64,000 bases of DNA, from positions 496,001 through 560,000 of the forward strand of contig NZ_CP021422.1 in assembly GCF_002201475.1 (NCBI RefSeq), read 5' to 3'. The notes beneath the pieces are model-generated. The model ran no database searches. It was not told the origin of the DNA and saw nothing but the letters and a program-made list of their open reading frames with translations. Origin of the DNA: Acutalibacter muris. Lineage in GTDB: Bacteria; Bacillota; Clostridia; Oscillospirales; Acutalibacteraceae. Positions within the stretch are counted from its first letter, which is position 1. Every line of letters starts with the position of its first letter. The translations under genes and the position numbers were made by a program. Below, piece by piece: positions 9,246 to 46,097 of this stretch.

Positions 9246-9274
9246 TTGACAAAGATACGCATTGATATTATAAT
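9246..9274 (+). promoter_or_regulatory. Consensus sigma-A promoter of the SPFH operon
   Basis: -35 TTGACA (9246-9251), 17-bp spacer, -10 TATAAT (9269-9274): full consensus. Confidence 0.85.
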
Positions 9275-15913: not shown

Positions 15914-16645
15914 ATGAAACTTCTTATCGTGCGCCACGGCGACCCGGACTACAGCATAGACTCCCTGACCGAAAAGGGCTGGCGGGAGGCCCACTACCTT
16001 GCGGATAGGCTTACAAAAACACCCGCCGACTTCTACTACTGCTCGCCTCTGGGCCGGGCGCAGGATACGGCCAAGGAGACAATGGAAAGACTTCATAGGA
16101 GCTATGAGGTCCTTCCTTGGCTCCGGGAATTCCAGACGGCTATACATAGGCCCGACGTGCCCGACCGGCTGATGAACTGTTGGGACTGGCTGCCCGGCGA
16201 CTGGGCAGAGGTGCCAGAGTTCCACCGGCAGGCTGACTGGCTTACCCACCCCGCCATGGAGGAGGGGAACGTCAGGAGGGAGTACGACTGGGTCATAAGC
16301 GGCCTGGACGAGCTCCTCCTCCGCCACGGCTACAGGCGGGAGGGAAACCTCTATAAGGTGGAGCAGGGAAACAACGACGCCATAGTGCTGTTCTGCCACT
16401 TCGGGGTGGAGTCGGTGCTATTGAGTCGGCTGATAAACCTCCCGCCCATGCTCATCTGGCACGGTATGGCGGCAGCCCCTACGTCGGTGACCACGGTGGT
16501 GACAGAGGAGCGCCGGGAGGGCACGGCCTACTTTAGGATGACGGCCTTCGGGGACACGTCGCACCTATATGCAAACGGCGAGCCGCCAGCCTTTGCGGCG
16601 CGGTTTGTTGAGAAGTGGGGGAACCCCGGGGAGCGAGTAGATTGA
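15914..16645 (+). CDS. Histidine phosphatase family protein (phosphoglycerate mutase-like)
   Basis: 243 residues, cytoplasmic. The catalytic motif is LIVRHGD (Arg7-His8-Gly9), with SPLGRAQDTAKET supplying the second arginine and LFCHFGVESVLLSRL the C-terminal catalytic histidine. These enzymes move or remove phosphate through a phosphohistidine. The inserted segment (about 70-130, WLREFQTAIHRPDVPDRLMNCWDWLPGDW) is typical of a Clostridia subgroup of unknown substrate, so a glycolytic role should not be assumed. AAAGG lies upstream. A folded non-coding region and a toxin gene follow. Confidence 0.88.
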   Translation: MKLLIVRHGDPDYSIDSLTEKGWREAHYLADRLTKTPADFYYCSPLGRAQDTAKETMERLHRSYEVLPWLREFQTAIHRPDVPDRLMNCWDWLPGDWAEVPEFHRQADWLTHPAMEEGNVRREYDWVISGLDELLLRHGYRREGNLYKVEQGNNDAIVLFCHFGVESVLLSRLINLPPMLIWHGMAAAPTSVTTVVTEERREGTAYFRMTAFGDTSHLYANGEPPAFAARFVEKWGNPGERVD

Positions 16646-16647
16646 CA

Positions 16648-16885
16648 GGGCCGAAGAAATCTCTTGCTTTTGCCGGAAATATCTTGGTGTTATGTCTGTA
16701 AGGAGTTCGCCAAGCGGTGGACGCTGGCTTGCGCCAGGTCCCGGAGATTTTCCTCGGCTATGAAATAGCCGCCTTTTCCTTCGGAAAAGTACCGGAAAAC
16801 TCCTGCCTCTACAGAGGGCCTGAAACCTCTGATTACATAGAAACCCGCTCTATCAAGGGCAGGAATCTGGTGTAAAGGAGGAGAG
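16648..16885 (+). ncRNA. Strongly folded leader upstream of the type I toxin gene (candidate structured RNA)
   Basis: No protein is encoded beyond a possible 23-codon ORF. Pairings visible by eye: GGAGTT (16702-16707) with AACTCC (16798-16803) closing a multiloop; inside it GGAC-CTGGC/TTGC/GCCAG-GTCC (about 16718-16740), GGCTAT/ATAGCC (about 16756-16770) and CTTTTCC/TTC/GGAAAAG (about 16774-16790). Next, CCTGCC (16802-16807) pairs with GGCAGG (16858-16863), enclosing GAGG/CCTC and ATAGA/TCTAT hairpins. The two closing helices share bases 16802-16803 and so compete. No known RNA family recognised. Confidence 0.5.
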
Positions 16886-16889
16886 CTTA

Positions 16890-17036
16890 ATGAGTGACTA
16901 TCAGATACTGCACCTGGTCATGATGCTGTTACAGCTCTTACTGACCGTAATAGGAATATGTGATAGTATAAATCACAAAAAAGTAAGCAACCGTTCCAGG
17001 GCACGGAACGGTTGCTGTTCTCATAGCAATACCTAA
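16890..17036 (+). CDS. Putative holin-like type I toxin
   Basis: 48 residues, too short for most gene callers, with AAAGGAGGAG before ATG 16890. MSDYQILHLVMMLLQLLLTVIGICDSINHKK has the sequence style of the Firmicutes holin-like toxin group (TxpA-like): short polar start, a single membrane helix (about 6-25) and a basic end. Such peptides insert into the membrane and are silenced by an antisense RNA. A convergent RNA with consensus promoter and terminator overlaps its 3' end (see 16977-17076). The last 17 codons run through the hairpin, as in other members. Confidence 0.8.
   Translation: MSDYQILHLVMMLLQLLLTVIGICDSINHKKVSNRSRARNGCCSHSNT
16977..17016 (-). terminator. Terminator of the antitoxin RNA
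   Basis: Stem AGCAACCGTTCC/GGAACGGTTGCT, 7-base loop, U-tract on the minus strand (A run 16977-16982). On the plus strand there is no U-tract, so it serves the antisense RNA. Confidence 0.88.
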
Positions 17037-17076
17037 ACCCGGGCCAGCCGTCTGTCGGCGGGCTCCACTTTTTTCT
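16977..17076 (-). ncRNA. Antisense RNA, probable antitoxin of the holin-like toxin
   Basis: A consensus promoter (17083-17111) fires leftward and should start near 17076. A perfect 12-bp hairpin (16986-16997 with 17005-17016), followed on the minus strand by TACTTTTTTG, ends the RNA near 16977. The roughly 100-nt product pairs with the last 60 bases of the toxin ORF and its 3' end. This matches the RatA/TxpA layout. Ends are predicted, not measured. Confidence 0.75.
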
Positions 17077-17082
17077 GTCTCT

Positions 17083-17111
17083 ATTATAGACCATAGCGGC
17101 CCGTTTGTCAA
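17083..17111 (-). promoter_or_regulatory. Consensus promoter of the antitoxin RNA
   Basis: Minus strand: -35 TTGACA (17106-17111), 17-bp spacer, -10 TATAAT (17083-17088): full consensus, with no gene downstream other than the antisense RNA. Confidence 0.85.
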
Positions 17112-17141
17112 GTCAAAGCTTCCGCGGACCGATTCCGCGCT

Positions 17142-45932: not shown

Positions 45933-45957
45933 GCAAAACTAAATAAACGGCAGAGAT

Positions 45958-46097
45958 AAAAACGCAACGCGCCTCCCCCTTTGGGGACTGTGCCAGAGCC
46001 GGTAGGTAGCCCGGCCGTCTCGTTTATCAAACGAGGTAAGTAACCCTCCCCTCCGGGTCGTCCGTTCCCTGTCCTTGGCAATTCTTAGGAGGGAAGG
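45958..46097 (+). promoter_or_regulatory. yjdF riboswitch (azaaromatic-responsive)
   Basis: A 140-base leader directly before a yjdF-family gene, opening with ACGCAACGCGCCTCCCC, then the hairpin CCCC/TTT/GGGG, GAGCCGGTAGGTAGCCCGGC, the hairpin CTCGTTT/AAACGAG (about 46018-46034) and CTCCCCTCCGGG. This element order and its place in front of YjdF fit the yjdF RNA motif, which senses azaaromatic compounds and controls translation near the ribosome binding site (AGGAGGG, 46088-46094). Assigned from context and remembered features; a covariance-model search was not possible. Confidence 0.75.

Follow-up and report, generated by a model that had tools for sequence, protein, structure and literature searches.

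The question raised by this locus is whether a short gene for a membrane-type peptide and the convergent promoter beyond it form a type I toxin-antitoxin module, as a sequence-only reading had proposed for the window (the whole stretch of 64,000 nucleotides from Acutalibacter muris that was analysed). The parts named in that proposal were present. The plus strand contains an ORF of 48 codons (16890–17036), with a Shine-Dalgarno (SD) sequence, AAAGGAGGAG, at 16874–16883. The minus strand contains a promoter (TTGACA-17-TATAAT, 17083–17111) that agrees with the consensus at 12 of 12 positions, and a 12-bp terminator, whose stem (17016–16986) is followed by TACTTTTTTG; together they predict an antisense RNA of 99 nt (16978–17076), close to the 100 nt claimed, over the 3′ end of the putative toxin gene. 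This RNA was predicted to fold at −40.7 kcal/mol (z −4.08; none of 200 shuffles was equally stable), and the predicted mRNA fold was also more stable than its shuffles (z −5.76). Terminator-like sites numbered four in the 1.4-kb region against 1.1 expected, and perfect TTGACA/TATAAT sites with a spacing of 16–18 numbered six across the 64 kb of the window, where dinucleotide shuffles predict 0.02. The six full-consensus promoters, of sigma-70 type, lie at window positions 9246, 12614, 14745, 17111, 47353 and 48790.

We consider it probable, at roughly two chances in three (0.68), that the window holds one copy of a chromosomal, multi-copy cassette that resembles type I toxin-antitoxin systems and works as follows. 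A weak promoter would give rise to an mRNA with a 5′ module (M) that folds back, the tail of M pairing with the ribosome-binding site (RBS) and leaving the mRNA silent. A strong convergent promoter would produce an antisense RNA of about 93–101 nt, which shares the central terminator hairpin and would therefore be complementary to the mRNA 3′ end. The antisense RNA would also carry a look-alike module (M′) with a tail complementary to the same RBS. Upon depletion of the antisense RNA and removal or refolding of M, the mRNA would yield a presumably toxic membrane peptide some 31 residues long. Legible in the sequence are the layout, the coding constraint on the larger groups of peptides, the leader structure, the SD masking in silico and the conserved antisense promoter; transcription, RNA–RNA contact, silencing and toxicity are inferred.

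The ORF claimed as a 48-codon toxin gene exists, but its length is not typical, as relatives mostly end around residue 31. A protein search yielded eight clusters, comprising P0001 (48 aa), P0002 (45 aa) and six clusters of 31 aa with an NHKK end, one of which (P0003) was identical to the window peptide across residues 1–31. A profile search raised the number of clusters to 13, the five newly gained being 29–31 aa long. Most related clusters have 29–31 residues and end just ahead of the terminator, and in 107 of the 113 ORFs of the family the last two residues are QK or KK; the gene end coincides with an A-rich stretch, which on the opposite strand forms the antisense terminator's T tract. In the window, this A-run (16977–16982) provides Lys-Lys codons on the plus strand and the terminator T tract on the minus strand. 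Since the relatives mostly stop near residue 31, the portion of the ORF matching them (16890–16982) was distinguished from the last 17 residues, which are an extension (17 codons and stop, 16983–17036) through the terminator stem. The window A-run is longer, by one compared with the paralogue L002, and the frame consequently runs through the stem, whereas the stop codon of L002 follows immediately after the A-run. The 48-codon length was common only to the window and cluster P0001 (nine member sequences), which has the extension of the window with three residues changed; P0002 represents another extension. In a second paralogue, L156 (G000:C1:3493572), a longer A-run likewise takes the frame beyond the usual stop. 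An assembly error may lie behind the A-run of L156, but is less likely for that of the window, because the extension in P0001 is the same but for three residues.

The peptide has a hydropathy of about 2.2 across residues 5–27 and KK at 30–31, i.e., one hydrophobic stretch with a basic end. Lack of conservation of the frame in relatives had been named as a refutation; the larger groups of peptides showed codon-position bias. Counted by codon position, the substitutions in the MLT group (1444/369/2417) and in the MDI group (353/158/1418) indicated coding constraint; two MSD pairs gave 12/2/14, and the comparison of the window with L002 (8/5/7) was uninformative. Membrane-type peptide and convergent antisense gene were also retained together in relatives and paralogues. 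The suggested holin-like toxin profile (Hol_Tox, PF16935) fared worse: neither the window peptide nor anything in the whole genome of A. muris matched it. Every cassette peptide tested stayed below the curated cut-off of 23.3 bits, the best being P0011 (19.1 bits, all 34 profile positions aligned, E 0.0012), followed by P0008 (14.2 bits), with the others tested lower or without a score. The likeness to Hol_Tox comprises length, an M-S-D/x-Y start and one hydrophobic stretch. Pfam and NCBIfam scans matched no Fst family among the peptides and no TxpA-type family for the window peptide, and the PXXXG motif was absent from the peptides inspected for it. Peptides of the MSDYQ type were uncommon: among the 29 genomes in the genus, a P0008 query matched three at E 0.1 (A. 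muris, G019 and, weakly, G006). The window peptide as query gave matches in 20 of 99 relatives at E 1, mostly at chance level. A pattern search for close peptide relatives picked out 25 stretches of genome_contigs and 64 of viral_contigs, none of them confirmed.

The family is marked by its RNA, with a covariation-supported leader and predicted convergent transcripts that start with near-identical modules. The 20-nt leader core occurred in at least 119 stretches of genome_contigs (one genome per species), and in most of 120 core occurrences a short hydrophobic ORF followed downstream. One leader preceded unlike peptide groups (MLTIEGL, MDILGL, MSIVDF, MSDFEL and MSVPIGDV). Further analysis covered 124 distinct records, those with enough flank, retrieved by core, leader model R1 or peptide; the core, and in some records M or the ORF, is thus present by construction, but M′ and the antisense promoter are not. 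A short ORF was present in 113 records, M and M′ in 107, and M, M′ and ORF together in 101. Of the 29 genomes in the genus, model R1 matched 16 at E 0.01; it also matched at least 5 of 150 genomes of the taxonomic family at 0.001 and at least 12 of 391 genomes of the class at 1e-4, the latter two counts being lower bounds owing to stricter filters. The class matches were A. muris itself, ten genomes of one other family and one of a third. Lachnospiraceae were named in 40 of the 80 titles among the core matches listed, and many of the other genera among them we take to belong to Lachnospiraceae as well. A few listed matches named other groups (Muribaculaceae, Gastranaerophilales), perhaps through binning error. 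Judged by these matches, the hosts appear to be Acutalibacter and, above all, Lachnospiraceae. A phage origin of the module was rejected, as positions 16640–17140 were unmatched in 50,697 phage records and the core was found in only eight stretches of viral_contigs. The 1.8-Mb genome G017 contained 21 leader-model matches, several of which formed tandem arrays with a distance of about 430 bases; the peptide of one of its loci, L181, has no evident standard start codon.

In the window, the leader includes hairpin HP2 (16812–16831), the conserved core GATTACATAGAAACC (16831–16845) and the HP3 region (16843–16863), all on the plus strand and with covariation of both hairpins in relatives. RNAalifold analysis of 39 leaders recovered HP1, HP2, HP3 and a helix linking the M tail to the SD sequence. 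In this consensus structure 96.3% of cells pair, and double-change cells numbered 33 versus 10.6 when shuffled, with none of 500 shuffles as high; shifting the helix partners abolished the fit. The helix between M tail and SD varied mostly on one side, and its support is therefore conserved complementarity more than covariation. In the 100 of 105 loci that were testable, the cost of opening the SD sequence was 6.10 kcal/mol with M and 2.53 without M, and shuffling of the 5′ part gave 3.69; with M, the cost lay more than 1 kcal/mol above the M-less value in 85 and above the shuffled value in 74 of the 100 loci. Pairing of the M tail with the RBS beat shuffles in 98 of 101 loci. At the family level, the M tail is thus predicted in silico to mask the RBS. 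Other leaders (e.g., L068, L118 and L010) contained different hairpin insertions in HP2.

The antisense RNA starts with M′ (17040–17066, minus strand, in the window), which resembles the mRNA 5′ module M in the same sense. No M′ score as high was obtained in 124 shuffled regions or on the opposite strand. M and M′ of one locus scored 12.7 against each other, compared with 9.7 for modules from different loci and 5.9 in opposite sense; of 82 loci, 50 had identical 8-nt tails in both modules, where shuffling gave a mean of 14.2. Across 41 disjoint nearest pairs of loci, which allowed 328 position comparisons, a change in both tails led to the same letters eight times and never to different ones, with M changing alone 5 times and M′ alone 14 times (Fisher p 1.1e-7). 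This co-change analysis left out 25 of the 107 loci, whose tails lay outside the pattern; in 16 loci with the tail pair GGCTAGTTC/GGCTAGTCC, the M tail was outside the co-change pattern. The co-change may come from shared function, gene conversion or pairing in a read-through RNA. Of 62 unique pairs, 56 showed better complementarity of the M′ tail to the RBS than shuffled tails did and 54 better than with a shuffled RBS, in a post hoc test picked after wider duplex and two-strand tests had failed. Tail and RBS did not covary, and cognate pairs were no better than cross-locus pairs. Broad binding of the leader by M′ was ruled against by comparison with shuffles, both as a wider duplex (−17.8 versus −18.3 shuffled; better in 40 of 101) and by two-strand folding (−4.5 versus −6.3 shuffled; better in 24 of 100), in which M′ left SD opening nearly as it was (6.00, versus 6.08 for the leader alone). 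Some of the wider-leader duplexes showed the M tail paired with the HP2 loop. On the modelled pairing, M′ could plausibly serve in trans as an anti-RBS strand, a role that does not by itself account for the co-change. That M masks the RBS in cis, that M′ gives the same anti-RBS strand in trans after removal or refolding of M, and that selection keeps the two copies alike, is a combination which we put forward tentatively and with more doubt than belief.

Promoter strength was asymmetric across loci. On the antisense side, at least 10 of 12 consensus positions were present in 72 of 107 loci and all 12 in 26 (shuffled mean 7.5); the toxin side reached these values in 20 of 103 loci and in 4, respectively (shuffled mean 7.6). 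The candidate toxin promoter of the window (TTGCTT-18-TGTTAT, 16664–16693, plus strand) was read from the sequence and not reported by the consensus scan; its paralogues L002 and L003 have TTGCAA-17-TATTAT and TTGCAT-17-TATTAT, respectively. A peptide search of the 3.80-Mb single-contig genome of A. muris recovered the window copy, L002 (67% identical to the window peptide over residues 1–33) and the decayed L003, while R1 gave five matches at E < 0.001. The antisense hexamers were perfect in five of the six cassettes compared in this genome (window, L002, L156, L158 and L160), with spacers unlike one another. The antisense promoter of the window is more than chance, because the other five cassettes have one too. 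In L003 (G000:C1:2746141), the front of the peptide gene is missing while the antisense promoter (TTGACA-17-TATATA) and the terminator are kept, and the locus would be an orphan gene for a predicted antisense RNA. Among five cassettes compared, each antisense RNA paired best with its own mRNA (−86.2 to −104.3); non-cognate pairing ranged from −41.6 to −65.1, and from −59.2 to −65.1 among the window, L002 and L003, so partial cross-talk within the genome is possible in these models.

The window copy itself showed several degenerate features: a repeat in the leader, loss of the M tail, the missed usual stop and a weak plus-strand terminator. The repeat (16736–16805) is a 70-nt palindromic, interspersed element with seven matches in the genome. 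It was also seen at L158, L231, L232 and L234–L236; judged by eye, some copies adjoin apparent ends of rRNA operons and one lies within a gene. In L158 the same repeat follows an intact GGTTGG, and by this comparison the anti-RBS tail of the window M (16700–16728, plus strand) has apparently been lost. Weak in the window copy were the pairing of the M tail with the RBS (−3.5 kcal/mol; shuffled mean −5.1) and the SD masking, which showed no excess over shuffled 5′ parts (opening 4.18 with M, 1.51 without and 4.44 with the 5′ part shuffled). The 18-nt spacer and the TGTTAT hexamer of the candidate toxin promoter count among the signs of decay too. Pairing of M′ with the RBS was also weak (−7.6, shuffled mean −5.2, versus −14.0 in L002). 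As a toxin gene the window copy is thus probably impaired; the antisense gene, by contrast, looks to have been kept intact. The same site, between a phosphatase and an HTH gene, lacks the module in G018, G010 and G021; in G019 (L197) it holds a cassette with a different peptide of the MSVPIGDV type. G010 was identified as Acutalibacter sp. 1XD8-36, of the same genus, because L099 contains a 300-base piece of L163. As far as these genomes indicate, the cassette is locally gained, lost or swapped.

These features bear on the view that the window copy works in full and that its natural product is a toxin of 48 residues. Its membrane stretch is whole, L156 is extended as well, and the nine sequences of P0001 carry the like extension with three changed residues; this has to be set against the QK or KK end of nearly all family ORFs, the course of the extension across the terminator stem, and the combination of a lost M tail with a poor plus-strand T tract, and we regard a working 48-residue toxin as unlikely, if deserving of some weight. 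A different objection concerns the whole family, whose peptide could be a small regulatory membrane protein rather than a toxin, with the antisense RNA and masked SD tuning its dose. Coding constraint in the peptides would fit such a role, as would the chromosomal location of the cassettes and the rarity of the core in viral contigs (eight stretches). Less easily explained in this way are the presence, absence and swap of peptide type at one site among sister species, the tandem arrangement with many copies per genome, the strong antisense promoter facing a weak sense promoter and the unlike peptides under one leader, which make a regulatory protein improbable.

The cassette could also be a mobile inverted-repeat element, with M and M′ as its ends, alike through mobility or gene conversion and not through silencing. 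In DNA, M and M′ are indeed inverted repeats that co-change, the same site is empty in three sister genomes, and tandem arrays occur. However, both promoters lie outside M and M′ and yet accompany the cassette, leader structure and peptides are under selection, and no target-site duplication was seen when the site was inspected by eye in the sister genomes. We consider this origin very improbable, and the preferred reading remains a type I-like cassette.

In TxpA/RatA of Bacillus subtilis, a convergent antisense RNA covers the toxin 3′ end, as the predicted cassette antisense RNA does. The earlier analogy with this system holds for the convergent layout; kinship does not follow, and the layout of par/Fst (Fst/Ldr family) matches better. 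To our knowledge, TxpA/RatA has no counterpart of the cassette leader or of the M/M′ pair. The pair is named in PMC11228461, which also gives the type I logic of a silent nascent mRNA and an antisense RNA. By sequence, the closest layout is that of par/Fst. For par of pAD1, PMC7472228 describes promoters that converge, a terminator common to both transcripts, a 5′ structure that masks the SD, and direct repeats through which RNA II can cover the initiation site. The cassettes too have predicted convergent toxin and antisense promoters and, at the family level in silico, SD masking by the 5′ structure of the toxin mRNA; the candidate shared terminator has T tracts on both sides in L002, but a poor plus-strand tract in the window. 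For the second complementary region, pairing of the M′ tail with the RBS was positive, while the wider duplex and two-strand tests were negative and covariation was absent. The cassettes differ from par in that their peptides have neither an Fst-type match nor, in those inspected, PXXXG, their second region is a module present in the same sense in both RNAs, one leader serves unlike peptides, and they are chromosomal whereas pAD1 is a plasmid. In Clostridioides difficile, type I pairs such as CD2517.1-RCd8 are convergent as well (PMC6563280); their toxins have 50–53 residues, and the available part of that article mentions neither a shared leader nor a twin module.

If M′ is a mimic, the antitoxin RNA copies the toxin mRNA's own 5′ end and does so for cassettes whose peptides are unlike; none of the type I systems used for comparison is built this way. 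If the wider proposal is true, common gut commensals hold a class of membrane peptides, silenced by RNA, that has gone unrecorded, the 5′ module that both RNAs share offers a handle to annotate them, and whether an antitoxin RNA copies the masking strand of the toxin mRNA becomes testable. Neither Lachnospiraceae nor Clostridia appeared in a term search of the main text of a recent type I study (PMC11264685). No paper describing the cassette family was found by title and start of abstract, a scope outside which most subscription papers fall, and such a paper may exist elsewhere.

No Rfam, Pfam or NCBIfam family scored above its cut-off for the cassette, and Rfam scans at the window locus and at L037 gave no score near the gathering threshold. 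A PDB sequence search returned a single match at chance level, and PHROGs and PADLOC searches returned no meaningful match. Elsewhere in the window, an azaaromatic (yjdF) riboswitch was detected on the plus strand at 45946–46081 with 57.7 bits.
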